In this document: one piece after another, positions 6,206 to 34,438 of the stretch | How the letters are laid out: every line of letters begins with the position of its first letter | Numbering within the stretch: the stretch's first letter is position 1 | Assembly: GCA_947625045.1 (NCBI GenBank) | Contig: CANQMW010000004.1 | Location: forward strand, 92,558-156,557 | DNA length: 64,000 bases | Direction: 5' to 3' | DNA from: an uncultured Oscillospiraceae bacterium | GTDB lineage: Bacteria; Bacillota; Clostridia; Oscillospirales; Oscillospiraceae | Notes under the pieces: generated by a model | The model's input: the letters and a program-made list of their open reading frames with translations, nothing else | Told to the model about the DNA's origin: nothing | The model's database searches: none | Program-made: the position numbers and the translations under genes

Positions 6206-6301
6206 CTATTTCACCTCGATATGCGAAAGTAAATAAAGGGCTTGCTATTCCGTCCCTCTTGAGTGATAGATAGACTATCAATACAATAGGAGGACTCGGC
6301 A

Positions 6302-6784
6302 ATGCATGAAGACTTAGTCAAACAGTTGGAGATGTTTCGCACTCACATTCTTGGGATGATTGACTCTTTAGAGGTCGCGCTCCAAGCATCGGCATCAGAC
6401 GAAGAGTCGGGGGAGAGCCTTCCAATTGAAGTCCCGCTCACATTGGGCGCAAATTTCTTTAAAGGAAAAAGACCCGCCGCTGTAATCTTTTCGGATGGAC
6501 ATCTCGTCGAGGCAACGACATGGAGAGCTGTGTCGCAGGTGATTCTTACCGACTGTTACGCATCGTGTAGTGACAACCTGTGCAAACTCAGAGGGATATT
6601 ATTTGGGAGATACAGGCTTCTCCTGGCAGATACGCCGGACGGTATGGACCAACCCATAAAGATTGCAGAGGATATGTTTTTTGAGGGAAAACTTGGAACG
6701 GAAACGCTGCTCCATGTTATTACCGAAAGAATCCTCATTCCCGTTGGCTATGATCCAAAGGGCATAAGTATTAGACTGCGTTGA
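6302..6784 (+). CDS. Hypothetical protein, probable moron
   Basis: 160 residues, no recognised domain, no signal peptide or membrane segment. It lies on the strand opposite to the tail operon, between tape measure and tail chaperones, with a strong ribosome binding site (AGGAGG, 8 bases before ATG). Single opposite-strand genes inside late operons are usually morons, autonomously expressed cargo that benefits the lysogen. It converges on the tail chaperone gene with only a short gap. The function is unknown. Confidence 0.7.
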   Translation: MHEDLVKQLEMFRTHILGMIDSLEVALQASASDEESGESLPIEVPLTLGANFFKGKRPAAVIFSDGHLVEATTWRAVSQVILTDCYASCSDNLCKLRGILFGRYRLLLADTPDGMDQPIKIAEDMFFEGKLGTETLLHVITERILIPVGYDPKGISIRLR

Positions 6785-6807
6785 AAAGATGCCCGCACTG
6801 TTTCCGT

Positions 6808-6999
6808 TCACGGTTTCAGGCCCGGCCAGACCACGTCAATGGTGGATGGCCGGGGCTTGCTATCATTGGCCTTTTTCCTGGCTCCCCATGCTCTGATACG
6901 CAAAAAGCCGAGCAGATCACATTGATCTATCTCGGCCATTCTCCAGTCGCTCTCCAGCAGGGAGTTATAGGTGGAATATATGAAATCAGGCAGCGTCAT
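6808..6999 (-). CDS. Tail assembly chaperone, second frame
   Basis: 63 residues ending just before the moron. In many siphophages two overlapping frames before the tape measure encode the tail assembly chaperone, the second often fused to the first by ribosomal frameshifting. The content ('DLLGFLRIRAWGARKK') resembles the short second-frame proteins of Clostridia phages, from memory of the family. Its ATG overlaps the stop of the upstream frame (ATGA). A Shine-Dalgarno-like GGAGGA lies about 17 bases upstream, rather far. It could be a coupled ORF or the frameshift extension. Confidence 0.6.
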   Translation of the reverse strand: MTLPDFIYSTYNSLLESDWRMAEIDQCDLLGFLRIRAWGARKKANDSKPRPSTIDVVWPGLKP

Positions 7000-7370
7000 G
7001 CCGGAGAGGTCGTTTCCTCCGGCACCGCTGCCGTCGTAGGGAACTCGTTCAGCACCTCTGTGGTCTGTGTCTGCACCGCCATCAGCGCCAGGGCAATGTC
7101 GTGCATGAGCCGATCCGCTGGGTAGTAGTCCAACACCTCATCCGGCGTGAACTGATTGTTGAACAGGATGCAAAACCAGCGGATCATGGTATCGATGGCA
7201 TCCGAAATGGACAGCTCCCTGGTGTCGGGGAGAGTTTCGCCCTTGATCGCCGCGTTGGATATGGCGACTATGCGCCCGTACATCTTCGCGGCGGGCTCCA
7301 TCTCCCGGAGCGCACGACCGGCAACAAAGTCCACTGTGTATTTCTTTCCGTTGAGCGTACATGAGATCAT
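6996..7370 (-). CDS. Tail assembly chaperone (gpG/XkdN-like)
   Basis: 124 residues. It sits directly before the tape measure block, where gpG-type chaperones that coat the tape measure during tail assembly are encoded. The N-terminus 'MISCTLNGKKYTVDFVAGRALREMEPAAKMYG' region and the acidic/Thr-rich tail fit this family. Start supported by GGAGGAAACACAC before ATG. Its stop overlaps the second-frame start, so coupling or a programmed shift is likely. Confidence 0.7.
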   Translation of the reverse strand: MISCTLNGKKYTVDFVAGRALREMEPAAKMYGRIVAISNAAIKGETLPDTRELSISDAIDTMIRWFCILFNNQFTPDEVLDYYPADRLMHDIALALMAVQTQTTEVLNEFPTTAAVPEETTSPA

Positions 7371-7489
7371 GTGTGTTTCCTCCTTATGTATGGTTCAGCT
7401 TCAATTTCCAGTTGCATTTTCGTTGTGACTGAATATAATAGAGGTGGGGTTCTTATGCCACACCCACTTCAGTTCCGAAAAATAAGGGG

Positions 7490-7518
7490 TTGACATTTGG
7501 GCGGAATTCCCTTAAAAT
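7490..7518 (+). promoter_or_regulatory. Near-consensus sigma-70 promoter
   Basis: TTGACA (7490-7495), a 17-base spacer, then TAAAAT (7513-7518). It points at the structured leader and the PBECR4 gene. A near-perfect autonomous promoter inside a late phage module is what a moron needs. Confidence 0.8.
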
Positions 7519-7524
7519 TGTGGC

Positions 7525-7700
7525 AGAGGATAGCGGCAAGACCAGCTATCGTGTACTGTGAAGCAGGAGACTGGGTCGGTATACAGCCTGCTGTGGAGTA
7601 CGATCGAGGGTTATGCGTAACCTCAAACCGACTAGATTCCGGTTCGCCGGGTTGAAAGAAAACGCTTGGAGCCTTGCTTGCGCAGGGCTCCTTTTATTTT
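7525..7700 (+). ncRNA. Structured leader RNA ending in an intrinsic terminator
   Basis: From the predicted start the transcript can fold several helices: GATAGC/GCTATC (about 7529-7550), GTACT/AGTAC enclosing CAGG/CCTG, and GAGG/CCTC around 7610-7625. It ends in a hairpin GGAGCC/GGCTCC (7668-7691) followed by TTTTATTTT. The terminator lies about 20 bases before the PBECR4 start, so this is either an attenuator for that gene or a discrete RNA of about 175 nt. I do not recognise an Rfam class. The region 7371-7489 holds nothing else I can support. Confidence 0.6.
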
Positions 7701-7719
7701 ACTTGGAGAATAGAGAGAT

Positions 7720-8337
7720 ATGCTGCTGATTAATTCCGCAAAAACGTGGAAGCATCTCTGCAACTATACCTACGGGCTTACATACGGCAGAAAGAAAAAG
7801 CTATACACCATCAACCTGGCCTTCAAAACCAGTGATTTCTTTCATATGGCCGGATTTCAGTATTTAGATGATCTTGCTTCTTTGCCGAAGTTCTCAAAAG
7901 CAAAGTATATCGACAAGGTCATCGATGGAACTATCACGTTGGCGCAAATTGAAAAAGGTCAACAATATGAAGAAAGCGTAAAACCCCGGCTCCTTGCTCT
8001 GGAAAACCTAGAGGATATACTAAACAACCCCTTTTCCCTCTATTCAGTCATACCAAGATTCTATCCATTTGTGACCCAGATCAAGTTTGATTACCTTATC
8101 AGAAGCGAATACTGCGGGGTCAGCTTTCTCTTTCTTATTCAGGTAGATGAGAATGGCGCTGTGCGCACCTGTGATTGCACATCGGTTTTCATGGAGGGTG
8201 AACGTGACTACACAGCAAACCAGAGACGTCTTTCCCTCTTGAGAGTTACACGGACAGAACTGTCTACCGGGGTAGAGACAACAGTCTTCAAAGCTGGCAC
8301 ATTTAAAGAATCTATTCCTGAAAACAAAGAAGCCTAA
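7720..8337 (+). CDS. PBECR4-domain protein (putative RNase-like moron)
   Basis: 205 residues. The segment 'TYGRKKKLYTINLAF' followed by 'FQYLDDLASLPKFSKAKY' and the central 'QYEESVKPRLLALENL' match what I remember of PBECR4 proteins, a phage-borne domain placed by comparative genomics near the barnase/EndoU/colicin/RelE nuclease group. Enzymatic activity is inferred, not shown. Expression would come from the promoter at 7490 and depend on reading through the leader terminator. AGAGAG lies 8 bases before the ATG. It is opposite to the late operon and therefore probably a moron. Confidence 0.65.
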   Translation: MLLINSAKTWKHLCNYTYGLTYGRKKKLYTINLAFKTSDFFHMAGFQYLDDLASLPKFSKAKYIDKVIDGTITLAQIEKGQQYEESVKPRLLALENLEDILNNPFSLYSVIPRFYPFVTQIKFDYLIRSEYCGVSFLFLIQVDENGAVRTCDCTSVFMEGERDYTANQRRLSLLRVTRTELSTGVETTVFKAGTFKESIPENKEA

Positions 8338-23955: not shown

Positions 23956-24059
23956 AGATCATGCCATGAAAAGGAAGATAGGATCAACCGGCTCCCCACG
24001 GCAGTGAGGGGCCTTTTTGTTACCGCCAGCCGCTCCGAAAGGGGCGGCTTTTTTGTGTT

Positions 24060-24480
24060 TCTGGGCCGTTTGACCCCCCTCCCCCAATTTCGCGGAAATT
24101 TACGCGAGAGGGGGGCGCGGTCTCTTAGTAACGCACCACCGGGATTCAGGCCCCCCTTGGGCGCACAGCCACGGGCGGGCGTGTGCGGCGGGTGGACGGG
24201 CGCGACCAGGGCGGGCGCACGGGCGGTGGCGGGTGGGTGCGACCGGGGGCGGGCGCACGGGCGGGCGTGGGCGTTACGCGCGTACACGCGGACGTGGGCG
24301 CCAGCGGCGGGCGCGGCGGGCGGTTTTTGGGGGCAAAAAACGGCGGCAGCCGGGCGGGGTGTGTAGGGTTTTCCCGTTTTGGGCGGGTTGGAGTTTTCGG
24401 GCGGCGGGCGCGAAAAAGGCCGGTTTTGCCCGGTTTTTGTCGGTTGTACACAAGCCGGGGGCGCGAGGTTTGTGTAGTAA
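24060..24480 (+). repeat. Extremely GC-rich, G-skewed non-coding stretch with direct repeats
   Basis: The plus strand is dominated by GGGCGGGCG-type words. A 24-base block starting GCGACC and containing GGGCGGGCGCACGGGCGG occurs twice, about 37 bases apart (24202 and 24239). Many G-runs could form G-quadruplexes. ORFs here lack ribosome binding sites and have repeat-driven composition, so I read it as non-coding. It separates the packaging operon from the plus-strand accessory operon; a packaging site, recombination site or leader of that operon are all possible. Confidence 0.5.
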
Positions 24481-24577
24481 ATCGGGTTGCTTTTTGGCCC
24501 CGGCAGAGCGATGAATGTGTCACGCCGCGGGGGGCAACCCCACGGGGCGAAAACAAAAACGAAAGGAACGCGACCCC

Positions 24578-25444
24578 ATGAAAAACCAGACCTTTGGCAT
24601 CGAACTCGAAATGCGACACATCACCCGCGCCGACGCCGCGAAAGTCATCGCGGCACACTTTGGAACCCAAGTCCGGCACACGGGCGGAACCTACGACACA
24701 CGCGAAATTCCCGACGGCACGGGACGTGTCTGGAAAGTGGTCTCCGACTCCTCCATCGACGATGTGTGGGAACGAGAGACCGAAGTGGTCAGCCCCATCT
24801 GCCGGTGGGACGACATCGAGACTGTGCAAGAGTTGGTCCGCAAGCTCAAGGCTGCCGGGGCCGAGGCACACACTTCCTGCGGCATCCACGTCCACGTCGG
24901 CCTCGGCGAACACACCCCCAAGACCCTGCGCAACTTGGTCAACATAGTCAACGCCAAGGAAGACCTGCTCACCATGGCTCTGGAGATAAGCCACAGCCGT
25001 CGCACACGGTGGTGCCAGCCGGTGGACCCGAATTTCCTCCGCCGTCTGAACGCGAAAAAACCCAAGACCATGGAGGCTTTCGCACAGCTTTGGTACGGCG
25101 ACCAGGACTGGCGGTACCACGCACACCAGCACTACGACTCCAGCCGGTACCACTTGCTCAACCTGCACAGCGTGTTCCAGAAGGGCACCATCGAGTTCCG
25201 GGCCTTCAACAGCACACTTCACGCGGGTAAAGTCAAAGCCTACATCCAGCTGTGCCTGGCCATCTCCTACCAAGCCCTGACTGCGGGGTCCGCCAGCCCC
25301 AAGCGCCCCGACACAGACAACCCCAAATACACCTTCCGGTGCTGGCTCCTCCGGCTGGGCTTCATCGGTGACGAATTTGACACAGCCCGGAAGCTCCTCA
25401 TCAAAGCCCTCCCCGGCAATTCCGCCTGGCGGATGGCTTCCTGA
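24578..25444 (+). CDS. Amidoligase (COOH-NH2 ligase) family protein
   Basis: 288 residues. Amidoligases share the glutamine synthetase-like fold and use ATP to join a carboxylate to an amine. Motifs: 'FGIELEM' (ExE, residues 6-12), 'SCGIHVHVGLG' (HxH, about 108-116) and 'GTIEFRAFNST' (about 206-216), which together identify Amidoligase_2. AAAGGA precedes the ATG at 24578. It opens the operon that also holds a class II glutamine amidotransferase and a gamma-glutamylcyclotransferase, a combination comparative genomics links to glutamyl-amide conjugation. The substrate is unknown. Confidence 0.87.
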   Translation: MKNQTFGIELEMRHITRADAAKVIAAHFGTQVRHTGGTYDTREIPDGTGRVWKVVSDSSIDDVWERETEVVSPICRWDDIETVQELVRKLKAAGAEAHTSCGIHVHVGLGEHTPKTLRNLVNIVNAKEDLLTMALEISHSRRTRWCQPVDPNFLRRLNAKKPKTMEAFAQLWYGDQDWRYHAHQHYDSSRYHLLNLHSVFQKGTIEFRAFNSTLHAGKVKAYIQLCLAISYQALTAGSASPKRPDTDNPKYTFRCWLLRLGFIGDEFDTARKLLIKALPGNSAWRMAS

Positions 25445-25476
25445 CACAGCCGCCATGGACACAGCTTTCAAATCGC

Positions 25477-25536
25477 CCCGCCTGACGAGTGCTGGCTGGC
25501 TGCCAGCCGAAACCGGGCACAGCGCCCGGTCGCGGG
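25477..25536 (+). ncRNA. Hammerhead ribozyme, type I (copy 1)
   Basis: Stem I CCCGC/GCGGG, core CTGACGA (25482-25488), stem II closed by GCTGGC/GCCAGC, GAAA (25509-25512), stem III CCGGGC/GCCCGG, then T-C (530-531) before the 3' arm. This is the complete hammerhead core with a GUC cleavage triplet; cleavage is predicted after 25531. Loop II GGCT can pair with AGCC just 3' of stem I. It has one bulged U in stem II. It lies between the amidoligase gene and the next ORF. Confidence 0.85.
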
Positions 25537-25590
25537 AAGCCGCACACGCTTTCAAATCAACCAGGGCATCTGCCCGGAAAGGAACACACC

Positions 25591-25887
25591 GTGAAAAAAC
25601 AGAACTTCTCCAACACACTCACCGGGGCCGCGAAAGGCTATGCCAGTATGTGGCACGAGGGCGTCATCGGCATCCCGAAAAAGGGTGGTAGCCACGTCCG
25701 AGTCACCTACCAAGTGAAGGTGTACAAAACTGGGTCCAGCTTTGGAATCAACGAGGGCCGCATTTCCAAGCTGTGGCTGGCCATCGACGGGCACACGGTA
25801 GCGAACTACGACCGGGGCTGGGACACAGAGCCGACCTGCGAAGAGGCCAAGCTCGCACTGTGCATCCTCCTCAACAACTACAACTGA
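25591..25887 (+). CDS. Small conserved-looking phage protein
   Basis: 98 residues from a GTG preceded by CCGGAAAGGAACACACC, the same leader used by neighbouring genes. The upstream extension of the frame runs through the ribozyme and is not coding. The C-terminal part ('KLWLAIDGHTVANYDRGWD', then 'LALCILLNNYN') looks like a small family common in gut Firmicutes mobile DNA; I cannot name a function. Basic N-terminus, no membrane segment. Confidence 0.72.
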   Translation: MKKQNFSNTLTGAAKGYASMWHEGVIGIPKKGGSHVRVTYQVKVYKTGSSFGINEGRISKLWLAIDGHTVANYDRGWDTEPTCEEAKLALCILLNNYN

Positions 25888-25935
25888 CACACAGCTTTCA
25901 AATCAACAGGGCGACCGCCCGGAAAGGAACACACC

Positions 25936-26526
25936 ATGAAAAAACAGGACATCCGAAAAAAGTACACTGAGACAGTCACCGAGCTTTTGAATCAAGGGTA
26001 CACCATTTTCCCCGACACCATGCGTGGCAGCCAGGGTGAGATCGCACACATCGATTTGAGCAACGGCTCTGAAATCGTCCGGGTCCTTTTGGAACGGGAG
26101 ATGTGCTGGGCGCACCTCGACGACGGCTTCGACGGCAACGTCATCATCCTCACGGTGGGCCGCGCCGCGCCGGACACACGCCTCTCCGACAACTGGGACG
26201 GCGACCTCTGGAACAACCGGCTGGAGCACATCTCCCAAATCAAGTGGCTGGAACTCACCGACCGCGGCGAAGGCTGGTACACAACCGTGGACGAAGCGCC
26301 TCGCATCGGACGCCTTCGGACGGAGCGGTACAGCCGCCGCAACACAGCCTGCCACGAGGAACTGGGCACAGCTTTCAAATCAGCCGCCCTGCCCTGGCTC
26401 CGGAAACAGCCGCGGATGAAGTCCTGCCGCCTGGAGGATATTGACCGGGTGGAGCGGTACACCGAGCGCGGGGGCCGCAGACGCTTTGAAATCACTGCCC
26501 GCGGAAAGCGGTACACCCTCCGCTGA
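25936..26526 (+). CDS. Hypothetical phage protein
   Basis: 196 residues, ATG after CCGGAAAGGAACACACC. It is rich in Trp, Arg and Asp, with 'WDGDLWNNRLEHISQIKW' mid-protein and a very basic C-terminus ('ERGGRRRFEITARGKRYTLR'), suggesting nucleic-acid contact. The operon repeat ACAGCTTTCAAATCA lies in frame and encodes 'TAFKS' near residue 145, so the repeat is tolerated inside coding DNA. Function unknown. Confidence 0.7.
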   Translation: MKKQDIRKKYTETVTELLNQGYTIFPDTMRGSQGEIAHIDLSNGSEIVRVLLEREMCWAHLDDGFDGNVIILTVGRAAPDTRLSDNWDGDLWNNRLEHISQIKWLELTDRGEGWYTTVDEAPRIGRLRTERYSRRNTACHEELGTAFKSAALPWLRKQPRMKSCRLEDIDRVERYTERGGRRRFEITARGKRYTLR

Positions 26527-26545
26527 GGCACAGCTTGCAAATCAA

Positions 26546-26603
26546 CCCGCCTGACGATGGCTGGCCGGCTGCCAGCCGAAACCGGGCACCGCCCGGTCGC
26601 GGG
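26546..26603 (+). ncRNA. Hammerhead ribozyme, type I (copy 2)
   Basis: Stem I CCCGC/GCGGG (546-550/599-603), core CTGACGA (551-557), one extra U, stem II GGCTGGC/GCCAGCC, GAAA, stem III CCGGGC/GCCCGG with a 3-base loop, T-C at 597-598 as the cleavage site. Loop II GGCT is complementary to the AGCC after stem I, a plausible tertiary pseudoknot. Flanked by CAGCTTGCAAATCAA and ACAGCTTTCAAATCAA. Confidence 0.88.
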
Positions 26604-26644
26604 AAGCCAAACAGCTTTCAAATCAACACATGGAGGTTTGCAAA

Positions 26645-26854
26645 ATGTACGAGAACGAATTCACCGAGGAAACCCTGCAGAACGGTCTGCGAGAACTGAT
26701 CGACGGCACACCTACAGATGACGACCCGGTCTGCTGGGAGAACTTCCGAGTACAGACTTTCGATGAAGCTGGTGTCATGACCTACAACAAGGGCTTGGTA
26801 ATCACCCTGCCCGACGGCACAGAGTACCAGCTGACCATCGTCCAGAGCCGCTAA
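26645..26854 (+). CDS. Small acidic protein
   Basis: 69 residues. The second of two in-frame ATGs is used because the first lies within the TGGAGGTTTGCAAA ribosome binding site. Strongly acidic N-terminal half, then a short beta-rich segment ('GLVITLPDGTEYQLTIVQ'). Unknown function; it sits between ribozyme 2 and the glutamine amidotransferase. Confidence 0.65.
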   Translation: MYENEFTEETLQNGLRELIDGTPTDDDPVCWENFRVQTFDEAGVMTYNKGLVITLPDGTEYQLTIVQSR

Positions 26855-26887
26855 CGCACAGCTTTCAAATCAAAGGAGGTCAAAACT

Positions 26888-27502
26888 ATGTGCATCATTT
26901 GCTCATCCGCCGCTGGCGTCCGCCAGCCCACCTGCGGAACTATCCGTACCATGTTCGAGAACAATCCCCACGGTGCGGGATATATGTACGCCCGCAACGG
27001 AAAGGTACACATCCGAAAAGGCTTCATGGATGTGGACAGCTTTCTGGACGCTATCCGAAAGGAACACTTCACCGCGAAAGACCCGGTGGTGTACCACTTC
27101 CGAATCAGCACCCAAGCGGGTGTGCAGCCGGAGATGACACACCCATTCCCGCTTTCAAATCGCCGCGACCGAATGAAAGTTCTGAAATCGAACTGCCGCT
27201 GCGGTATCGCACACAACGGCACCATCCAGCTCACCAGCGACCCCAATAACAAAGAGTACAGTGACACAGCCCTCTTTGTGACGCAGTACCTCTCCGAAAT
27301 CATCCGCCAGCCCAGCGACCTGCGGAACCCCGCCACACTGGATTTCATCCACCATCTGGCCGGGTCCAAATTCGCCATCATGGATGCCAGCGGATACATA
27401 GCAACGATTGGTAAATTTATAAACGAGCGGGGACTACTGTTCAGCAACGACAGCTACTACCCACGCAGGTACTTCTGGACAGCATCCACGAAACGCTTCT
27501 GA
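26888..27502 (+). CDS. Class II glutamine amidotransferase-like protein
   Basis: 204 residues. The Ntn-hydrolase signature is present: Cys2 directly after the initiator Met (nucleophile), 'NPHGAGYMY' (about 30-38), 'VVYHFRISTQAG' (about 67-78) and 'CGIAHNGTI' (about 104-112). It would release ammonia from glutamine or act as an amidase. AAAGGAGGTCAAAACT precedes the ATG; only the repeat CAGCTTTCAAATCAA, no ribozyme, lies in the gap before it. It probably works with the amidoligase of the same operon. Confidence 0.85.
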   Translation: MCIICSSAAGVRQPTCGTIRTMFENNPHGAGYMYARNGKVHIRKGFMDVDSFLDAIRKEHFTAKDPVVYHFRISTQAGVQPEMTHPFPLSNRRDRMKVLKSNCRCGIAHNGTIQLTSDPNNKEYSDTALFVTQYLSEIIRQPSDLRNPATLDFIHHLAGSKFAIMDASGYIATIGKFINERGLLFSNDSYYPRRYFWTASTKRF

Positions 27503-27507
27503 ATCAA

Positions 27508-27567
27508 CCCGCCTGACGATGGCCCATGGCACGGGCCGAAACGCTCCGAGGCTTGGAGCGTCGCGGG
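27508..27567 (+). ncRNA. Hammerhead ribozyme, type I (copy 3)
   Basis: Starts 6 bases after the glutamine amidotransferase stop. Stem I CCCGC/GCGGG, core CTGACGA, extra U, stem II GGCCC/GGGCC with loop ATGGCAC, GAAA, stem III CGCTCC/GGAGCG, T-C at 561-562. Stems II and III differ in sequence from copies 1-2 but keep pairing. Loop UGGC matches GCCA after stem I. Confidence 0.9.
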
Positions 27568-27607
27568 AGCCACACAGCTTCTAAATCTACATGTGGAGGG
27601 ACACAGC

Positions 27608-27820
27608 ATGACAAAAACCACACTTACGGAAATTTTCAAGAAGTACAACCTTACAGAAAATGACGTAGGCACGATGCTTTGGGAAGATGCAGAAGATGAT
27701 CACGATGCACATTTCATAGTGATACGCGACTGTTCGGCGCTGTACATCATCGATACCTGCGGCATTGAGGCTGGCTCAGATGGCTTCTATGAAGGGAGTG
27801 TATACACGGTTCTGATGTGA
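27608..27820 (+). CDS. Small hypothetical protein
   Basis: 70 residues, ATG at 27608 after GGAGGGACACAGC; the in-frame GTG at 27593 overlaps this site. Acidic, with 'FIVIRDCSALYIIDTCGI' forming a likely beta hairpin. No recognised domain. Confidence 0.65.
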   Translation: MTKTTLTEIFKKYNLTENDVGTMLWEDAEDDHDAHFIVIRDCSALYIIDTCGIEAGSDGFYEGSVYTVLM

Positions 27821-27833
27821 TAAGTTCATACAC

Positions 27834-27870
27834 TCTTGATGATGGCTGCTGGCACAGTCGAAACGCTCCC
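27834..27870 (+). ncRNA. Broken hammerhead relic (lacks 3' half)
   Basis: CTTGATGATGG, a stem II GGCTG/CAGTC with loop CTGGCA, then GAAACGCTCC: the 5' half of the ribozyme up to the 5' strand of stem III. GGAGCG-TC-GCGGG is absent and the sequence continues directly into CAAATCAA. It cannot self-cleave, so it appears to be a deletion derivative. Confidence 0.7.
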
Positions 27871-27907
27871 AAATCAAAATGGGCATCGCCCGGAAAGGAA
27901 CACACAA

Positions 27908-28126
27908 ATGAAAAACTTGAACTTTGAAATCTGTATGGACATCCTCGACTGGTACGATGATGACCTTTACGACTTCATCAACCACATCCTCACATCCAAA
28001 GTGGACGGGTCCAAGCGTATCCAGAGAGCGTTGCCACATCTGCAGACTCATGTGCAGAACCTTGTGGAGCAGAATCGAAACACCGCACGGCATACCCGAA
28101 AAGTGTGTGATTCGCTCTTAAATTGA
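27908..28126 (+). CDS. Small hypothetical protein
   Basis: 72 residues, ATG after CCGGAAAGGAACACACAA. Predicted helical: an acidic N-terminal helix ('MDILDWYDDDLYDFINHIL') and a basic C-terminal helix. Its stop is immediately followed by ribozyme 4. Function unknown. Confidence 0.65.
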   Translation: MKNLNFEICMDILDWYDDDLYDFINHILTSKVDGSKRIQRALPHLQTHVQNLVEQNRNTARHTRKVCDSLLN

Positions 28127-28185
28127 CCCGCCTGACGATGGCCTTTGGCACGGGCCGAAACGCTCCGGGATTGGAGCGTCGCGGG
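28127..28185 (+). ncRNA. Hammerhead ribozyme, type I (copy 4)
   Basis: Begins one base after the preceding stop codon. Stem I CCCGC/GCGGG, core CTGACGA, extra U, stem II GGCCT/GGGCC (a U-G wobble replacing a C-G pair of copy 3), loop containing TTGGCAC, GAAA, stem III CGCTCC/GGAGCG, cleavage after C28180. Loop UGGC can pair with the GCCA that follows. Confidence 0.9.
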
Positions 28186-28224
28186 AGCCACACAGCTCTC
28201 AAATCAAAACAAGAGGTTCACGAA

Positions 28225-28452
28225 ATGAACAGCTACGAAATCCTTGTTGCATGTGAAAAACTTGGTGCGCACACTGTTGAGGTCATAGAAAGCGACCCGA
28301 AGTTGGAGAAGCCGCTGCGCGGTGTCGCCAACACAACGGACAGGAACACCGTACAGTGTTTCCTCGGCGGGGGCTACGGTGAAGATGACTGTGAACTCAC
28401 CCCGGAAGAGTTCGGCAGCCGACTGAAAATCACAGCTGGCATTTTCGCCTGA
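28225..28452 (+). CDS. Small hypothetical protein
   Basis: 75 residues. The ATG at 28225 follows AAGAGGTTCACGAA; the longer frame upstream runs through the ribozyme. 'EILVACEKLGAHTVEVIE' is a likely helix-strand, followed by a Gly-rich turn ('FLGGGYGEDD'). Unknown. Confidence 0.63.
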   Translation: MNSYEILVACEKLGAHTVEVIESDPKLEKPLRGVANTTDRNTVQCFLGGGYGEDDCELTPEEFGSRLKITAGIFA

Positions 28453-28466
28453 CGCTTCTGAATCAA

Positions 28467-28527
28467 CCCGCCTGACGATGGCCCCTGGCATGGGCCGAAA
28501 CGCTTCCAAATTCGGGAGCGTCGCGGG
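28467..28527 (+). ncRNA. Hammerhead ribozyme, type I (copy 5)
   Basis: Stem I CCCGC/GCGGG, core CTGACGA, extra U, stem II GGCCC/GGGCC with loop CTGGCAT, GAAA, stem III CGCTTCC/GGGAGCG (one pair longer than copies 3-4, with a U-G wobble), T-C at 521-522. Conserved flank GAGCCGCACACGCTTCCAAAT. Confidence 0.9.
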
Positions 28528-28589
28528 AGCCGCACACGCTTCCAAATTAACCTGGCGCCCAGGGTGAAGGGCAGAAAGGTCACACACCA

Positions 28590-28847
28590 ATGGAAAGCAG
28601 AGAGATGGATTTTAAGTTGGACACCGACGACCTCAAGGGCATGATCGCTTTGATGGATGAGCGTGGCTCGGACACCGATGATGCTCTGTACTCTGGTGTA
28701 AATCAGAATGGCGACACACTGCACATCTCAATTTTCCCAGACAAAATCAGCATCCGTGTGTTTCAAGAAAATGGATGGCTTCGCCGCAGTGTGTACTATC
28801 GCGATGGCAGCAGCGAGGAAATCTACGAGGGCCGCTGGGCACCCTAA
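28590..28847 (+). CDS. Small hypothetical protein
   Basis: 85 residues, ATG after AAAGGTCACACACCA. N-terminal acidic helix, then alternating beta strands ('NGDTLHISIFPDKISIRVFQ'). No domain recognised. It lies between ribozyme 5 and the second ribozyme relic. Confidence 0.63.
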   Translation: MESREMDFKLDTDDLKGMIALMDERGSDTDDALYSGVNQNGDTLHISIFPDKISIRVFQENGWLRRSVYYRDGSSEEIYEGRWAP

Positions 28848-28856
28848 TCAAATTAT

Positions 28857-28872
28857 TCCGCCTGGCGCGGGA
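28857..28872 (+). ncRNA. Collapsed hammerhead relic (stem I only)
   Basis: CCGCCTGG followed directly by CGCGGGAG: the two strands of stem I with the start of the core, but stems II and III deleted. The downstream flank TCTGCACACGCTTTCAAATCAA is the usual ribozyme 3' flank. This looks like a deletion scar. Confidence 0.6.
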
Positions 28873-28932
28873 GTCTGCACACGCTTTCAAATCAACCTTG
28901 CGCCCAAGGCTCTAAGGTAAAGGGGTGATTAT

Positions 28933-29121
28933 ATGGCAAAAAGATGGCTCGTCATTTACCGGAGTCGTTACTATCCTTTTGAGGGTGACCACCGAAGATA
29001 TGTGTGGGCCGAATCAAAAAAGCAAGTTCGTGAACACTGGCCCGACCTGATTTGCACTGACGAATATAAGATTGTCAGAATTGAAGAGTCAACCAATGTG
29101 GGAATGCCCATAGCGCCTTGA
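28933..29121 (+). CDS. Small basic hypothetical protein
   Basis: 62 residues, ATG after AAAGGGGTGATTAT. Starts 'MAKRWLVIYRSRYYPFEGD'; one Trp-rich strand-helix unit. It resembles short phage proteins that present an aromatic surface, but no function can be named. Confidence 0.6.
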   Translation: MAKRWLVIYRSRYYPFEGDHRRYVWAESKKQVREHWPDLICTDEYKIVRIEESTNVGMPIAP

Positions 29122-29165
29122 CATTGCATAACGCCGCAGTAAAATTACAAAGGAGGGTCTTTCAA

Positions 29166-29510
29166 ATGAAAATCTATACTGTAGTTGAACATGGATCTGC
29201 CCATGTGTTTCTTTCAAAGGAAAAAGCGACGGACTTTGCCGCAGGAAAGCAACTCGACCTGTCTGGCGAACCCAGCTCCCAAATCCAGGAACACGAACTC
29301 CTGGTGAATGTCGCTGTCTGCGTGGAGAACGGCTTCATAGAACGGGCCATTGCTACAAGCGATATAATGTTTGATGTGTACGACTGTGATGGACAGGACA
29401 TCATTCCCGATGATAACACGACCGGGGAAAGCGCCAAGACTGTCGGCGAAAGAGCGCGGGAAGAGTTTGATGAGCTTGCCAAATCGCCCGGTTACATTAC
29501 CATCTACTGA
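29166..29510 (+). CDS. Hypothetical protein
   Basis: 114 residues. AAAGGAGGGTCTTTCAA before the ATG at 29166 decides the start. N-terminal 'MKIYTVVEHGSAHVFLSKEKA' resembles small phage proteins of unknown role; the middle is acidic. It is followed closely by the next gene. Confidence 0.65.
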   Translation: MKIYTVVEHGSAHVFLSKEKATDFAAGKQLDLSGEPSSQIQEHELLVNVAVCVENGFIERAIATSDIMFDVYDCDGQDIIPDDNTTGESAKTVGERAREEFDELAKSPGYITIY

Positions 29511-29532
29511 ATGCAGCGAAGGAGGACAGCCA

Positions 29533-29778
29533 ATGCCAGACACCACTTTCATTATCCGTTTTGAGCTTCGGGATCAAGATAACGGCACACAGTCAGAGGA
29601 ACAGGAGCACACAGTGCTGTCGGATGCCTGGGATGCCTTCCGGCTCTTTGCCGAGCCAGCCAGTGCCGAAATGTACTCACGGATCGTGCTCGTCGAGCGC
29701 AACTGGACTGCTGACATTGAGCGGGACATTGCCGCGCTGGTATTTCCGGCGCCGCGCAGCTCCGAAATCAATGTCTGA
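29533..29778 (+). CDS. Hypothetical protein
   Basis: 81 residues, ATG at 29533 after GAAGGAGGACAGCCA. Beta strand start ('TTFIIRFELRDQDNG'), then a helix with 'SDAWDAFRLFAEPASAEMY'. No domain recognised. Confidence 0.63.
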   Translation: MPDTTFIIRFELRDQDNGTQSEEQEHTVLSDAWDAFRLFAEPASAEMYSRIVLVERNWTADIERDIAALVFPAPRSSEINV

Positions 29779-29805
29779 ATCTTTTCAGTAGAAAACACTT
29801 GACTT

Positions 29806-29857
29806 TTCCGGGCAGCAGAGTGATTACTGTCACGCCGGCTGCCCGGAATCATTTTTG
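29806..29857 (+). terminator. Intrinsic terminator or attenuator
   Basis: TTCCGGGCAGC (29806-29816) pairs with GCTGCCCGGAA (29838-29848) over 11 bp, followed by TCATTTTT. It separates the small-gene operon from the gamma-glutamylcyclotransferase gene, so that gene may be expressed at a lower level or from its own weak promoter. Confidence 0.7.
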
Positions 29858-29872
29858 GAGGAGGAACACGCG

Positions 29873-30307
29873 ATGAAATATATAGCTTATGGGTCCAACA
29901 TGGTAGAGGAACAGATGGCCTATCGCTGTCCAGGCGGCAAGCTCATCGGCATGGGGACGCTTTCAAATCACCGCCTGGAGTTCTACCGCCATGCCACGGT
30001 GGAGCCCGATACTGCCTGCGCCGAGGGTGTTCCCGTTGCCGTATGGGAGATCAACGACACCGATGAGCGACGGCTCGATGTGTACGAAGGATATCCACAT
30101 TACTACGACAAGGAAGAGGCCACGGTACGCATGGCGGATGGCTCTGAAATCAAGGGCATGGTGTACATCATGTGCGACCGCTACAAACAAGAATCACCCG
30201 TGGATGAGTACTATGCAGACATCTGCAAAGCGTACAAAAAGCTGGGCCTCGGCTCAGAAATCAGCACTGTCCTTGAACCCGCGCTCATGCGCTGCCGCGC
30301 ACGGTAA
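29873..30307 (+). CDS. Gamma-glutamylcyclotransferase family protein (AIG2-like)
   Basis: 144 residues. The substrate-loop signature 'YIAYGSNM' opens the protein, and 'PVAVWEINDTDERRLDVYEGYPHYY' carries the conserved 'LDxYEGYPxxY' with the catalytic-region acid. These enzymes release pyroglutamate from gamma-glutamyl amines. GGAGGAGGAACACGCG precedes the ATG. Together with the amidoligase and the class II amidotransferase it completes a putative amide-conjugation set. The repeat GCTTTCAAATC occurs in frame ('LSNHR'). Confidence 0.9.
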   Translation: MKYIAYGSNMVEEQMAYRCPGGKLIGMGTLSNHRLEFYRHATVEPDTACAEGVPVAVWEINDTDERRLDVYEGYPHYYDKEEATVRMADGSEIKGMVYIMCDRYKQESPVDEYYADICKAYKKLGLGSEISTVLEPALMRCRAR

Positions 30308-30336
30308 GGCTTCGAGTCCCACGCCTACTGTATACT

Positions 30337-30519
30337 ATGACCAAGAACTATACAATTAAGGCTGGCCAAAAACCTACGCAGGCGCAGTTGGAGGAGGTCG
30401 AAGCCGCTGCGAAGCAAGAGGTAACTTTTGATGAAGACTCTCCCGAATTATCTCCGGCCATGATCAAAGCGTTTAAGTGCTCTGCGACACATCGAAATCG
30501 TGCAAGAAAAGAAGCATAG
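30337..30519 (+). CDS. Small antitoxin-like protein
   Basis: 60 residues. 'YTIKAGQKPTQAQLEEVEAA' and 'VTFDEDSPELSPAMIKAF' resemble short BrnA/CopG-like antitoxin proteins of gut Firmicutes phages. No toxin partner is adjacent on the same strand. It is the last gene of the plus-strand operon, 17 bases before the terminator hairpin. Confidence 0.55.
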   Translation: MTKNYTIKAGQKPTQAQLEEVEAAAKQEVTFDEDSPELSPAMIKAFKCSATHRNRARKEA

Positions 30520-30539
30520 TTTTTGCTAAACAAGTTTCA

Positions 30540-30570
30540 GCCGCTCCCAAATTGGGGGCGGCCTTTTTTC
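30540..30570 (+). terminator. Intrinsic terminator of the plus-strand operon
   Basis: CCGCTCCC pairs with GGGGGCGG around AAATT and is followed by CCTTTTTTC. It ends the accessory operon before the convergent minus-strand replication module. Confidence 0.88.
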
Positions 30571-30723
30571 TTGCCCATGTCACGCCCACGTTTGGCCCGT
30601 GTCGGGTTTGGGGAAAAAGGTGGGGTTAGTACCCAAGGGAGGGCGCGGCGTCAAACGTGCGCGGCTGGGGGCAAAAGAAAAGCGCCAAGCAAATCGCTTG
30701 ACGCTTTCAAATAGTCAGTGGAC

Positions 30724-31242
30724 TTATTTATCCGCGATGCCCGCCTGCACGACGGGGTTTCCATCGGCGTTGGTCGTGAATCGAACCACCACGCTCCCGT
30801 CCACCGCTTTGTACTTGGCGGCAAAGGGCTGGGTCCACAACTCGGTCAGTCCGGGGCAACTCTCGAATGCCTCCAGCCGGTACTCCTCAGCCTGTGCGGG
30901 GTCATCCCGACATAGCCGGAAGATGTGGGTCAGGGCATCCAGCTGGGTCTTGGTCACCAGCTCCAGTACCTCGTCTGCCGATCTTGCGTTGAAATCGGAA
31001 GGCGGTACTTTGGGCTTGAACACATCCCAGCTGGTCAGCGGCGACCGCTGGTTCATGTGTTCCAGCATAGCCTCGGCAGAACCGCAGGAATCGCAAATGT
31101 AGATTTCCGCAATTCGGCTCAGTGCGTTGGTGTGCAGCGGGTGCTTCATGTTGTCCGCGCCGCAGCGGGGGCAGACCATATGTTCGTCGGCATCCTGCCG
31201 GGCTTTCAAATCCAGAAGAATTCGTGTCGTGCGCTCGGTCAT
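30724..31242 (-). CDS. Zinc-ribbon phage protein
   Basis: 172 residues. Two Cys pairs ('CPRCGADNMKHPLHTNALSR' and 'CDSCGSAEAM') form a zinc ribbon in the first 60 residues; the rest is helical with no recognised domain. It may be a small transcription or replication accessory. It overlaps the DUF4314 gene stop by ATGA. Last gene of the replication operon. Confidence 0.7.
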   Translation of the reverse strand: MTERTTRILLDLKARQDADEHMVCPRCGADNMKHPLHTNALSRIAEIYICDSCGSAEAMLEHMNQRSPLTSWDVFKPKVPPSDFNARSADEVLELVTKTQLDALTHIFRLCRDDPAQAEEYRLEAFESCPGLTELWTQPFAAKYKAVDGSVVVRFTTNADGNPVVQAGIADK

Positions 31243-31484
31243 CGCTTTCCCTCCTCGCTATCAATTCTGATGCAGACATCCTCGCCGTACACAACACCGA
31301 GGCCGGAGCCACAGTCCCAGGCAACGAAGATCGTGCCTGTATCATCCACACATTTGACTGTACCCAGGGCACCGGGTTTCAGTTTCTGGTTGTAGGGATC
31401 GTTCATGCGAATCAGTTTCACACGGCAGCCCTTGGGGTATTGCTCCCGAAGGGCCGCCAGTCGCTCGGTAGGAATCATGTTCAT
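31239..31484 (-). CDS. DUF4314-domain protein
   Basis: 81 residues. 'YPKGCRVKLIRMNDPYNQKL', then 'GALGTVKCVDDTGTIFVAWD' and 'GSGLGVVYGED' is the DUF4314 pattern (an SH3-like small beta barrel). Common in phages and conjugative elements; function unknown. ATGA overlap on both sides indicates coupling. Confidence 0.85.
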   Translation of the reverse strand: MNMIPTERLAALREQYPKGCRVKLIRMNDPYNQKLKPGALGTVKCVDDTGTIFVAWDCGSGLGVVYGEDVCIRIDSEEGKR

Positions 31485-32467
31485 GAATCGACCTCCACAG
31501 TCGGTTCAGCCTCGCTGGGTTCGTCTGAACCGGCATCAGCTCTCGGTGCCCGCCGCTCTCTACGGATGGCGGCATACTTATCTTTGTGTGCCTGTGCAGC
31601 CGCCTCGTTCTTGAATGCGGCATAGCCTTTCAAGTGTCCCAGCAGTGTGGCTCGGAACTCTTTGTGCTCCGGCCCACCGTATCCCATCCGCATCAGCCAG
31701 GAGTGCGCATAGAACTTTTCGTTCTCCGGCGTGGCTTTGGAATCCAGGCTCACGCGGGTCGCACCCTTCGCCATCCGCATCATCCCCGCCAATAGCTCTC
31801 CAATGGCCTCCCAGCGTGTGGGATTCTGCTCATCATAGGGGAACGCCATCGTAAAATGGTCGTCCGCGAAACTCAGGCCGTTGACCTCACCACGCTCCAT
31901 GCCGACATTCAAATCTGCCTGTACATCGGCTATGGTCTCATGGTATGCTTTGGCGCAGAGAGCCTCAACGAAATCCTGCCGAAGATCCAGCGTTTCGTTG
32001 CCGGTCATGCGGCGGATGAGATACTGCTTGCTGCAGACCAGCCGAAGCAGGTTTTTCACTTCCGCCACTGTCCAGCCCTCCAGCGGGAGTGTGATAGCCA
32101 CAGCGGTGACATTCTCTGTTGGCTCTGGAATTGCGGTCTCTTCATTCTCCGGGGCGGCTTCGGCCTCGCCGTCTGCAGAGGCTTCTTCATCTTCGGCGGC
32201 AGCGGTCGCCTCGATGTTCTCGGCCTCGTCTCCCAGATCGTACTCGCCGGGGTCCAGCCAGTCGTGCTCGATGAGCATGGGAATCAAGTTCTCGGTGGTA
32301 GCATCCAAGTCGTAGTTTATTGTCCCGTCCCGGTTGACTGTTACCGCGCCGATTTGGTAGGCGCAGGAGGGCATCCCCATGTAGGTGGAGTCCAGCCCCG
32401 TCAGCTCGGAAATGGCCTTGACCATATCCTTGCGGTCATCCGGGTGGGTGTTCAGGTGGATAGTCAT
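31481..32467 (-). CDS. Hypothetical phage protein with acidic linker
   Basis: 328 residues. Residues 1-80 are a small folded domain; about 80-115 is a Glu/Ala-rich linker; the C-terminal 200 residues are helical and contain 'EKFYAHSWLMRMGYGGPEHK' and a basic tail. Similar proteins in Clostridia phages are labelled 'virulence-related', which I cannot support from sequence. It is coupled to DUF4314 and probably belongs to replication/takeover functions. Confidence 0.65.
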   Translation of the reverse strand: MTIHLNTHPDDRKDMVKAISELTGLDSTYMGMPSCAYQIGAVTVNRDGTINYDLDATTENLIPMLIEHDWLDPGEYDLGDEAENIEATAAAEDEEASADGEAEAAPENEETAIPEPTENVTAVAITLPLEGWTVAEVKNLLRLVCSKQYLIRRMTGNETLDLRQDFVEALCAKAYHETIADVQADLNVGMERGEVNGLSFADDHFTMAFPYDEQNPTRWEAIGELLAGMMRMAKGATRVSLDSKATPENEKFYAHSWLMRMGYGGPEHKEFRATLLGHLKGYAAFKNEAAAQAHKDKYAAIRRERRAPRADAGSDEPSEAEPTVEVDS

Positions 32468-32592
32468 TTGCGTTCCTCCTTGTTGGTACTCAAGGGGCCT
32501 TGTCCCTTGGCGTGTGACATTAACGCTCTGAAACTCATAAAAGTCAACGCCTACAGGGCGCTGTTCGCAAATTTATTTTCATCCAAACACAC

Positions 32593-33642
32593 TCACTCTT
32601 CCCAGGGCATCCAGGCCCGCCAGAAATGGCCCAGGTAGGACACACGATTGTAATCCACATCCTTCAGCCGCAGGTTTGTGATGATCCCACTGGGCGTCAG
32701 GTCGTACCGCTTCCGAATCAGCCGCTCAATATAGTTTTTGGGCACTCGCTGAGTCCCAAAGCAATCGACGCTCACAGAGACCGGCTCCGCCACACCGATA
32801 GCGTAGGCGAGCTGCACCTCACACCGCTTCGCAAATCCCTGCTTGACTATGTCCCTGGCTACTTTCCGCGCCATGTAGGCAGCGGAGCGGTCCACCTTGG
32901 TGGGGTCCTTGCCCGACAGGGCGCCGCCGCCAAAGCGGCAGGCACCGCCGTAGGTGTCACAGGCCAGCTTTCTGCCGGTCACGCCGGTGTCGGCAAACGA
33001 GCCTCCGAGGACAAAGCGGCCAGTGGGATTCACCAGGACTTTGAAATCCTCGTTCTGGCTATAGCGCCGAGCAGCCTTTTTCATGATCGGCTCCACGGTG
33101 TGCCGGACTTCATCCAGACTGGCATCCTCTTGATGCTGTGTGCTTATCAGGAAGGTGTCGATCCGGTTTCGCCGGTAGTCGTAGGTCACCTGGGATTTGG
33201 CATCCGGCAGAAGAATAGGGGAGCGGAGATCCGCCAGGGCCTCCAGCGCCTCTGTCGCCAGGACGAAGGGCAAGGGGAGAAGCTCCTGAGTCTCGCTCGT
33301 CGCGTATCCGAATATGATGCCCTGGTCACCGGCGCCCTGCTTATCCACACCAAGTGCGATGTCAGGACTCTGTCGGGTGATGTGGTGATGCACAGTGAAG
33401 GAATACGAGTCCTTACCGTACCCAACCATCCACAAGATCATCTGTACCAGGGCATCGAAATCCGGGTCATGTTTGGAAGTGATCTCGCCGGAGATATACA
33501 CGTCGCTGCCCTTGATCATGCACTCCACAGCCACACGGCTGTTGCGGTCGTGCTGCAGGCAGTCCGTCACAATGGCATCCGCGATCTGGTCGCAAATCTT
33601 GTCGGGGTGTCCGCGGGAAACTTGCTCAGATGTAAAAAGCAT
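32593..33642 (-). CDS. metK: S-adenosylmethionine synthetase (phage MetK)
   Basis: 349 residues, shorter than host MetK (about 380-400). It makes SAM from ATP and methionine. Motifs: 'GHPDKICDQIADAIV' (His ligand to phosphate), 'GAGDQGIIFGYA' (ATP motif) and 'GGGALSGKDPTKVDRSAAYM' (P-loop-like). The internal ATG at 33642 with GGAGGAAAGAG upstream is chosen over 33672. It likely supplies SAM to the two phage methyltransferases or offsets host SAM depletion. Confidence 0.93.
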   Translation of the reverse strand: MLFTSEQVSRGHPDKICDQIADAIVTDCLQHDRNSRVAVECMIKGSDVYISGEITSKHDPDFDALVQMILWMVGYGKDSYSFTVHHHITRQSPDIALGVDKQGAGDQGIIFGYATSETQELLPLPFVLATEALEALADLRSPILLPDAKSQVTYDYRRNRIDTFLISTQHQEDASLDEVRHTVEPIMKKAARRYSQNEDFKVLVNPTGRFVLGGSFADTGVTGRKLACDTYGGACRFGGGALSGKDPTKVDRSAAYMARKVARDIVKQGFAKRCEVQLAYAIGVAEPVSVSVDCFGTQRVPKNYIERLIRKRYDLTPSGIITNLRLKDVDYNRVSYLGHFWRAWMPWEE

Positions 33643-33661
33643 CTCTTTCCTCCGTTCCATT

Positions 33662-33694
33662 GAAAAAGCCACCGGGGATCGCTCCCCAGTGGCT
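33662..33694 (-). terminator. Intrinsic terminator upstream of metK
   Basis: On the minus strand AGCCACTGGGGA pairs with TCCCCGGTGGCT around GCGA, followed by TTTTC. It ends the upstream minus-strand transcripts just before metK, so metK needs its own promoter or antitermination. No SAM riboswitch is visible here. Confidence 0.82.
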
Positions 33695-33785
33695 CCGTTT
33701 ACTATTTCACCGAATACACTATAGCACTATCTGGGGGGTGTGTCTTGTTGCAAAGTGTTGCATTTCGCTGCAAAGTGTGCAACTT

Positions 33786-34211
33786 TCAGATCCGGATGGG
33801 GCTTTCCGGGAGCTGCACATGGGCGAGGCCGCGCTTATGCCAACGATAGACGGTTGTCCGATCGGCCTTGAGCTTGTCCCCGATCTGCTCCCAGGTCATA
33901 TTGTGAATGTACCGGTAGCGAAGAACCAACCGTTCGTCTGTATCCGTAACGGCTGTGATCACACCACGCATCTGCTCCTTAAGGGCAACCAAAGCATCGA
34001 TCTCCCGGTTGATCTGCTCCTCAAGCATAAGGACCTTCTCAATGCTCCGCACAAAGGGTGCCTCTCCGATGCGGGTGGTCTGCACCTTGTCGCCCAGCGT
34101 CGGCGGGGTCAGTCTGCTGGCCATTTCTCGCAGCCGCGCCGCTTCCTCTATGTCACTGTTGATTTTCAAATCCAACCGGTACGCCTGCCGGAGATATTCC
34201 TTTGCCGTCAT
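33786..34211 (-). CDS. Sigma-70 region 4-like regulator (DUF1492/ArpU-type)
   Basis: 141 residues. A C-terminal helix-turn-helix ('YIHNMTWEQIGDKLKADRTT', then 'VYRWHKRGLAHV') follows a long helical N-terminus. Proteins of this shape control late gene transcription in Firmicutes phages. The start at 34211 overlaps the upstream stop by ATGA; the longer frame to 34376 is an artefact of the overlap. Confidence 0.82.
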   Translation of the reverse strand: MTAKEYLRQAYRLDLKINSDIEEAARLREMASRLTPPTLGDKVQTTRIGEAPFVRSIEKVLMLEEQINREIDALVALKEQMRGVITAVTDTDERLVLRYRYIHNMTWEQIGDKLKADRTTVYRWHKRGLAHVQLPESPIRI

Positions 34212-34438
34212 AGGACACAAGCCTCCTCTTTCAGCTTCTGCAGCACGACTGATCCGTCCACATCGGTGAGCGCCGTGAACCAGTCTGACAAGAAGAAATC
34301 TTCGCAGTCCTCCCGCACCTGCTTTGCCTTGTCGCTCCTGGGGAGCCTCTTGAGTGTGCGGACGGCGGCTTTCCAATCCTTGACGGCCTGTCGGATGATG
34401 GCGTTCGCTAGTCTTTCATAATCCTTGATGTCGCTCAT
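34208..34438 (-). CDS. Small hypothetical phage protein
   Basis: 76 residues. GGGAGGTATCGCAC before the ATG at 34438 sets the start. Helical, 'YERLANAIIRQAVKDWKAA' then 'CEDFFLSDWFTALTDVDG'. This small gene typically precedes the sigma-like regulator in Clostridia phages. Function unknown. Confidence 0.72.
   Translation of the reverse strand: MSDIKDYERLANAIIRQAVKDWKAAVRTLKRLPRSDKAKQVREDCEDFFLSDWFTALTDVDGSVVLQKLKEEACVL

Follow-up and report, generated by a model that had tools for sequence, protein, structure and literature searches.

Variant hammerhead motifs at the gene joints of a prophage operon and their predicted role in splitting its transcript

Five intergenic RNA motifs in a 64-kb stretch of DNA from an uncultured Oscillospiraceae bacterium (contig CANQMW010000004.1, positions 92,558 to 156,557; the whole stretch is called the window below) were characterized as variants of the hammerhead ribozyme. 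They stand at joints of a prophage operon that begins with an amidoligase gene. Their predicted self-cleavage would break up the transcript that the genes share and supply single genes, or small groups of them, with separate mRNAs; we regard this as the probable role of the motifs. That the five copies are hammerhead variants in structure leaves little doubt on comparison of sequences, and self-cleavage with message splitting is likely, judging from conservation and precedent. The original prediction had claimed hammerheads in a phage accessory operon that split one transcript: the hammerheads stand, by covariance model, covariation, orientation and position, while the splitting is still predicted. 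The window is prophage DNA, with genes for tape measure, major head, portal, terminase and methyltransferase on the minus strand and the ribozyme operon (its later genes are called g3 to g11) on the plus strand.

All five copies (hammerheads HH1 to HH5) lie between genes in sense orientation, have the type I layout and start where the original prediction had placed them. HH1 occupies 25477-25542 (stem I 25477-25481/25532-25536, core CTGACGA 25482-25488, predicted cut after 25531), HH2 26546-26609 (core 26551-26557, extra U at 26558, cut after 26598), HH3 27508-27572 (core 27513-27519, extra U at 27520, cut after 27562), HH4 28127-28190 (core 28132-28138, extra U at 28139, cut after 28180) and HH5 28467-28532 (core 28472-28478, extra U at 28479, cut after 28522), all on the plus strand; these predicted cleavage positions, proposed earlier, agree with the sequence. 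CTGACGA, GAAA and GTC are present in each copy. The elements follow one another in hammerhead order, namely the open stem I (CCCGC/GCGGG), CUGACGA, stem II, GAAA, stem III and GUC, with the cut expected after the C. As claimed, every copy folds into a three-way junction whose open end is stem I, with covariation in all three stems. For stem II the claimed covariation was borne out, but the 7-bp stem GGCTGGC/GCCAGCC proposed for HH1 is impossible, as it would leave a loop of 1 nt; instead, a G-C pair adjoins A9 in HH1, a bulged U follows that first stem II pair, and the tail GCCG pairs with loop II.

To identify such motifs by comparison we used a covariance model, R1, whose alignment (A3) consisted of 8 sequences from viral contigs, all equally long and none taken from the window. 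In the 64-kb window R1 matched exactly the five copies, with E values from 2.3e-16 to 5.2e-10 (HH1, 58.8 bits, E 7.4e-13; HH2, 72.5 bits, E 2.3e-16; HH3, 51.0 bits, E 7.3e-11; HH4, 49.2 bits, E 2e-10; HH5, 47.6 bits, E 5.2e-10). With filters off, the sixth-best match in 24000-31000 was a decayed copy at 27835-27888 and the remainder was background. Taken alone, the folding energy of the five copies is modest (z −1.09 to −2.64 against shuffles) and the bare core pattern is weak evidence, with 5 matches against a shuffle mean of 1.41 and a largest value of 7; the structural identity of the copies is settled by the comparison with R1. The bare pattern count was dropped as an argument, since 2 of 100 shuffles reach 5.

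The original prediction had proposed a covariance search with Rfam hammerhead models as a check; R1 returns the five copies, while the Rfam hammerhead models (among them RF00163) return none in the window. At its thresholds Rfam 15 gave no hammerhead there, none up to E 10 in 24500-30700, and no gathering-score hammerhead in 12 loci carrying 52 R1 matches; a lax threshold yielded a single Hammerhead_II match, below threshold at 23 bits (37 required), in a second array of the same genome (L172). Rfam was set aside as arbiter of hammerhead identity. Its models at thresholds miss all 52 R1 copies supplied, so that phage hammerhead counts based on Rfam models are likely low. The motifs resemble the Rfam families (RF02276) in core and three-stem order and differ from them in giving no gathering-score match.

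At the level of single nucleotides, the core C3 U4 G5 A6 N7 G8 A9 ... G12 A13 A14 is found as CTGACGA plus GAAA in all five copies, and the A15.1-U16.1 pair with H17 as GAAA...GTC, again in five of five; the A-U pair is present in 98 of the 99 distinct sequences with letters at these positions. The stem II pair N10.1-N11.1 directly behind A9, used in a census of 2011, is formed in HH1; in HH2-HH5 an unpaired U intervenes between A9 and stem II. The window copies are therefore filed as a variant of the type I hammerhead and not as standard type I. In that census (Perreault et al., PMC3088659) an N10.1-N11.1 mispair or a core change led to rejection, and a candidate was reinstated if activity was measurable. 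Its stem II filter would exclude the U form found here, and we infer that the U-insert class was largely filtered out. In viral contigs searched at equal stringency we counted, near-duplicates included, 45 stretches with an inserted U, 12 without an insert and 2 with A, C or G.

Covariation was measured in an alignment (A4) of 109 rows, 100 of them distinct, fitted to the 17 stem pairs. Its 53 sources were the window, two stretches of its genome, all 37 viral-contig loci with an amidoligase gene and 13 of 120 further loci (at least 120, among the matches listed); these 13 were mostly chosen for several motifs, from a pattern containing CTGANGATGG, so that the alignment leans to that form. Across the 100 distinct sequences, 96.1% of the cells of the 21 pairs taken together hold a formed pair (76.6% in shuffles), and both sides change in 19 of the 21. 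Each fixed core position is kept in 142-151 of 157 distinct sequences; position 7 is free (C 98, T 45, G 10, A 4), which is hammerhead-like.

The tail that directly follows stem I (RCCR) is able to pair with loop II, which mostly reads YGGY. The four pairs of this pseudoknot, absent from the model, are formed in 87.8% of cells against 82.1% in shuffles and 12-53% with slid partners, and their covariation score (0.291 versus 0.189) was equalled by 0 of 500 shuffles; in 33 of 95 cells the outermost pair is not formed. Overall, stem II length and linker length go together, among the 126 of 159 sequences that were parsed (33 were not; 6 of the 126 have no 3-bp loop-tail match): in U-insert forms the linker has 1 nt in 21 of 25 cases with a 5-bp stem II; of the 25 with 6 bp, 12 have a linker of 2 nt and 9 one of 1 nt; with 7 bp the linker has 2 nt in 26 of 35, and in bulge forms 2 nt in 18 of 19. 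A pseudoknot, between stems I and II, also occurs in about 40% of the set of Perreault et al. (PMC3088659). The pseudoknot hammerhead of Zhan et al. 2024 (PMC11300833) likewise has its core held by a pseudoknot, but there it replaces helix II, whereas the window copies form helix II as an ordinary hairpin and use its loop for the pairing with the tail.

Extra nucleotides at the hammerhead core have a parallel in plant viroids. De la Pena and Flores reportedly described an extra core nucleotide in a viroid hammerhead in 2001, and the extra A of the Chrysanthemum chlorotic mottle viroid (CChMVd) hammerhead is placed between A9 and stem II. The CChMVd hammerhead, with its extra A in the core (PMC3705267), shares with the window copies one added nucleotide at the catalytic center, and it is active; unlike them it has A in place of U, belongs to a plant viroid and forms no gene arrays. 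This parallel bears on the notion that the motifs are not ribozymes at all, only structured hairpins between genes with a part in stabilising mRNA ends, which owe their likeness to hammerheads to descent and are inactive through the extra nucleotide. The failure of Rfam to find them and the extra nucleotide beside the core in four of five copies would fit; hairpins, however, have no need of the catalytic nucleotides, the cleavage triplet and the pseudoknot that are kept across unrelated phages, and an active viroid hammerhead with an extra core nucleotide is on record (PMC3705267). We give this notion very little credence.

The distribution of the motif was studied in amidoligase neighbourhoods, 37 loci from viral contigs and 80 from species genomes, the genome set chosen by the amidoligase alone. 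R1 gave 50 matches in 22 of the 37 viral loci and 72 in 22 of the 80 genome loci, and all 122 are in sense orientation. Of the 50 loci whose amidoligase is at least 60% identical to that of the window, 44 have matches; none of the 67 with an identity of 58% or below does. In the gene-order set (48 loci, 42 after loci with shared ribozymes were dropped; genes anchored by tblastn) 40 of the 42 non-redundant loci have a ribozyme no more than 130 nt downstream of the amidoligase gene, and 16 of 19 have one before g4. The next recognised gene behind the amidoligase joint varies, being DUF7678, g3, g4, g5, g7 or the cyclotransferase gene. The tblastn anchors replaced a family-clustered gene-order count, dropped for a wrong spacer pattern and misread genes. 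The longest arrays have nine copies (L107, which is not an amidoligase locus, and the related L184, L185 and L186).

Position between genes was examined with 108 matches (127, reduced to 115 without near-identical ones and to 108 far enough from locus ends). In 103 of them the end of an upstream open reading frame (ORF) falls within −20 to 120 nt and a start with a ribosome site within 130 nt downstream, against 19.8% (standard deviation 3.5) for random positions. Location inside a long ORF was rejected as a test of intergenic position, being useless in GC-rich DNA (52 of the 108 in ORFs of at least 100 amino acids; random 69.7%). R1 does not fire everywhere: it has 12 matches on four contigs in the whole genome of 2.93 Mb, 5 of them in the window, and matches in 11 of 300 genomes of the family, the window's own included. 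An order-wide sample gave an R1 match at E 1e-4 in 8 of 394 genomes.

Compared with the window, the two closest operons lack whole genes. One (L174) is without g3, g6-g7 and g9-g10, the other (L173) without DUF7678, g3, g6-g8 and g10-g11; g4 is accompanied by its leader, and the amidoligase gene by its downstream flank. The ribozyme at the amidoligase joint, in contrast, is not the same in the three operons: the window has the HH1 type, L174 one that shares its stem III with HH4, and L173 yet another. The ribozyme between g5 and g8 in L174 is a mosaic, with the stem III of HH4 between HH3-like flanks on both sides. Genes have been exchanged at the joints; that the joints drive the exchange is our proposal only, and with nothing but ribozyme or spacer in the gaps, there was hardly another place for breaks to fall.

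In another explanation the copies are passengers: repeats that spread and persist by recombining with one another at the DNA level, whose RNA may cut with little use to the phage. It would accommodate the spacer repeats on both sides of the copies, the exact 13-mer GCTTTCAAATCAA with 6 occurrences genome-wide, all in two ribozyme arrays (including C5:37231-37243), the shifts of gene content at joints, the different ribozyme types at one joint among close relatives, and the existence of decayed copies. A DNA repeat, however, needs no catalytic core, compensatory pairing or pseudoknot across unrelated phages and no sense-only placement (122 of 122 matches), nor does it call for the position behind the amidoligase gene kept in nearly all loci; we judge it unlikely.

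Under the preferred reading, splitting of a shared transcript, the RNA would be cut as it is made, after C17; the upstream message would end in hairpins II and III and the downstream one would start with a 5′-hydroxyl leader of 44-67 nt. The predicted leaders behind the cuts of HH1 to HH5 measure 59 nt (to the GTG start of the DUF7678 gene), 46 nt (g4), 45 nt (g6), 44 nt (g8) and 67 nt (g9), and the distance from cut to start in relatives has a median of 44 and quartiles of 42 and 56 (73 homology-supported genes). A single transcript is plausible because the plus strand holds no terminator-like site from 24050 to 29188. Cleavage may further insulate each message from its neighbours, and such insulation would explain the tolerance of gene swapping at ribozyme joints. 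Synthetic ribozyme insulators (RiboJ) use a hammerhead to trim upstream RNA so that the next gene gets a standard leader; they are engineered and single, unlike the natural copies at most operon joints here.

Of the nine gaps from the amidoligase gene to g10, five contain an intact ribozyme, two a decayed one and two a bare spacer repeat. The decayed sixth copy (27835-27888, plus strand) has the core TTGATGA and keeps stem II and GAAA, having lost the 3′ halves of stem III and stem I; its score (11.8 bits, E 0.084 without filters) is statistically weak alone, and it is recognised by sequence and intergenic place. The decayed seventh copy (28856-28897, plus strand; 8.6 bits, background level) consists of stem I and downstream flank only, 28861-28897 being 86% identical to the downstream flank of HH1 (repeat family D2). 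A bare spacer repeat without ribozyme, CACACAGCTTTCAAATCAA, lies in the gap between the DUF7678 gene and g3 (25886-25906, plus strand) and another in the g4/g5 gap (26853-26873, plus strand), which is bare in L174 and L173 too.

Stem I of HH3 begins 5 nt after the preceding gene's stop, and that of HH4 abuts the stop codon 28124-28126. In relatives the upstream stop is U4-G5-A6 of the core itself in 22 of 87 homology-supported genes, a count that rests on our own ORF calls, made with the caller behind the dropped gene-order count, and includes near-duplicate loci. Deposited annotation agrees in five cases (L266:8353, L267:8333, L267:8901, L273:3096 and L273:2509), and the three in L266 and L267 are also among the 22. 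A ribosome terminating at such a stop would cover the ribozyme. These overlaps, with the two close stops in the window, favour regulated cutting, a switch in place of punctuation, in which a ribosome at the upstream stop blocks the cut. In contrast, the stop lies elsewhere in 65 of the 87; phage genomes are compact, and compactness may be the full cause, as one frame in three meets the core UGA by chance. We consider such gating quite improbable.

Named phages carry the motif as well. Eight phage stretches gave 13 R1 matches, eleven of them in sense orientation at gene edges (95 phage records have an amidoligase match, of which three were looked at). Faecalibacterium phage FP_Brigit has a sense match between gp72 and gp73, Salisaeta icosahedral phage 1 two around ORF 17, Aphanizomenon phage vB_AphaS-CL131 one, Caulobacter phage S2B two, one of them partial, and the Ca. 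Heliusvirales phages PV036419 and PV036454 two and three, respectively. A match on the other strand of S2B (E 0.034) is probably chance; L268 had no R1 match.

Several observations weigh against splitting by active ribozymes. Flavonifractor phage Castelnaud carries the motif antisense within an annotated gene (L271:1215-1281, 60.8 bits), and either the annotation is wrong or the motif acts on another transcript. Four of the five window copies have an unpaired U where a standard hammerhead has a stem II base pair, and a hammerhead-like RNA of Faecalibacterium prausnitzii is among the inactive examples in a figure legend (Figure S7) of the 2011 work (PMC3088659). The count of further pair types in the pseudoknot is not above shuffles (215 of 500). 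Two operon gaps have no ribozyme and two have decayed ones, and a ribozyme stands beside the cyclotransferase gene in 0 of 19 loci. With such bare and decayed gaps and the ribozyme-free cyclotransferase joint, splitting appears not to be needed at every joint.

The original prediction had held that so many tandem copies as operon punctuation were, to its knowledge, not described, which is wrong for the arrangement: clustered hammerheads that flank prophage genes, with message splitting proposed, were reported in 2011 for Clostridium scindens, Azorhizobium caulinodans and Agrobacterium tumefaciens, and tandem prophage hammerheads in three arrangements cleaved in vitro and in E. coli (PMC3088659). 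As in those clusters, several copies of one orientation flank single genes or short blocks in phage DNA, with phage structural genes nearby. Unlike there, where cleavage was demonstrated, it is predicted here; a triple arrangement and three tested tandem sets there compare with five copies here and nine in relatives. A later paper likewise remarks that ribozymes of bacteria form clusters, close to one another and to genes of Mu-like phages (PMC10085705).

The text portions compared of the 2011 paper hold no arrays of five or nine, no U-insert class and no exchange of genes at joints (PMC3088659). In the open literature after 2011, with most subscription papers outside its scope, we found neither the U-insert class nor longer arrays nor insulation described. 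As far as searched, what is new is a variant class missed by Rfam, the nine-copy arrays, the ribozyme kept at the amidoligase joint while the next gene changes, and stop codons inside the core. A wider idea is that phages possess a ribozyme-based gene-cassette system, with insulating self-cutting joints, repeated DNA as the crossover point, a ribosome-gated cut, and a U-insert class unlisted because search models and filters exclude it; as a whole we find this rather doubtful. The role of hammerheads in phages has been a standing question since 2011, and this operon family makes it easy to test: most of its joints hold a ribozyme, single joints that have lost theirs in nature can serve as controls, orthologous joints occur both with a ribozyme and without, and the same RNA is present in phages that have names (FP_Brigit, Salisaeta icosahedral phage 1, vB_AphaS-CL131 and S2B).

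The genes of the operon, all on the plus strand, begin with the amidoligase gene (24578-25444; Amidoligase_2, Pfam PF12224, E 5.9e-67; PHROG 2443), the DUF7678 gene (25591-25887; Pfam PF24726, E 1.1e-29) and g3 (25936-26526; PHROG 38037, E 1.4e-27). There follow g4 (26645-26854), an open frame with relatives found by tblastn; g5 (26888-27502), with 1817 relatives; g6 (27608-27820), an open frame; and g7 (27908-28126), g8 (28225-28452) and g9 (28590-28847), open frames with relatives. The product of g5 is likely a glutamine amidotransferase: one of 120 listed relatives (P0068) is called ‘predicted glutamine amidotransferase’ by its source, and g5 had no match in the PDB up to E 1. A promoter-like site at 29118-29145 (11/12) precedes g11, and the operon ends, free of ribozymes, with a gamma-glutamyl cyclotransferase gene (29873-30307; Pfam PF06094, E 1e-11; PHROG 2520). 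Behind it lies a terminator-like hairpin with a T run (30540-30562, plus strand); another such site lies at 24028-24049, and the type is only slightly above chance, with 13 sites in the stretch on both strands where 9.1 are expected.

Some further repeats were seen. The repeat GCTTTCAAATC has 15 sites at no more than one mismatch (1.4 expected), all on the plus strand in 25464-34378, between and inside genes. Small GGGC/GCCC hairpins precede the ribosome site in three gaps (25543-25608, 25888-25953 and 27860-27925; repeat family D3), where they would fall in message leaders. The interior of g3 (26363-26497) has weak similarity to the upstream and downstream flanks of the ribozymes (families D1 and D2) and is perhaps an absorbed joint or ribozyme remnant.

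Elsewhere in the same genome, the second array mentioned above (L172, contig C1, minus strand 4427-8231) has four R1 hammerheads and, in one gap, a RAGATH-5 RNA at 6862-6914 (Rfam, 53.6 bits); an anti-restriction gene of the ArdC type is flanked there by an upstream hammerhead and the downstream RAGATH-5. Hammerheads beside ardA were reported by Perreault et al. (PMC3088659). A further contig has a single strong R1 match (G000:C6:79059-79129, in L318; 68.3 bits). In the window itself, a second amidoligase-like gene is located at 31481-32467 on the minus strand (PHROG 2443, E 2.4e-34), and a drum RNA (Rfam RF02958, 78.3 bits) at 7553-7670 on the plus strand, opposite to the phage structural genes.

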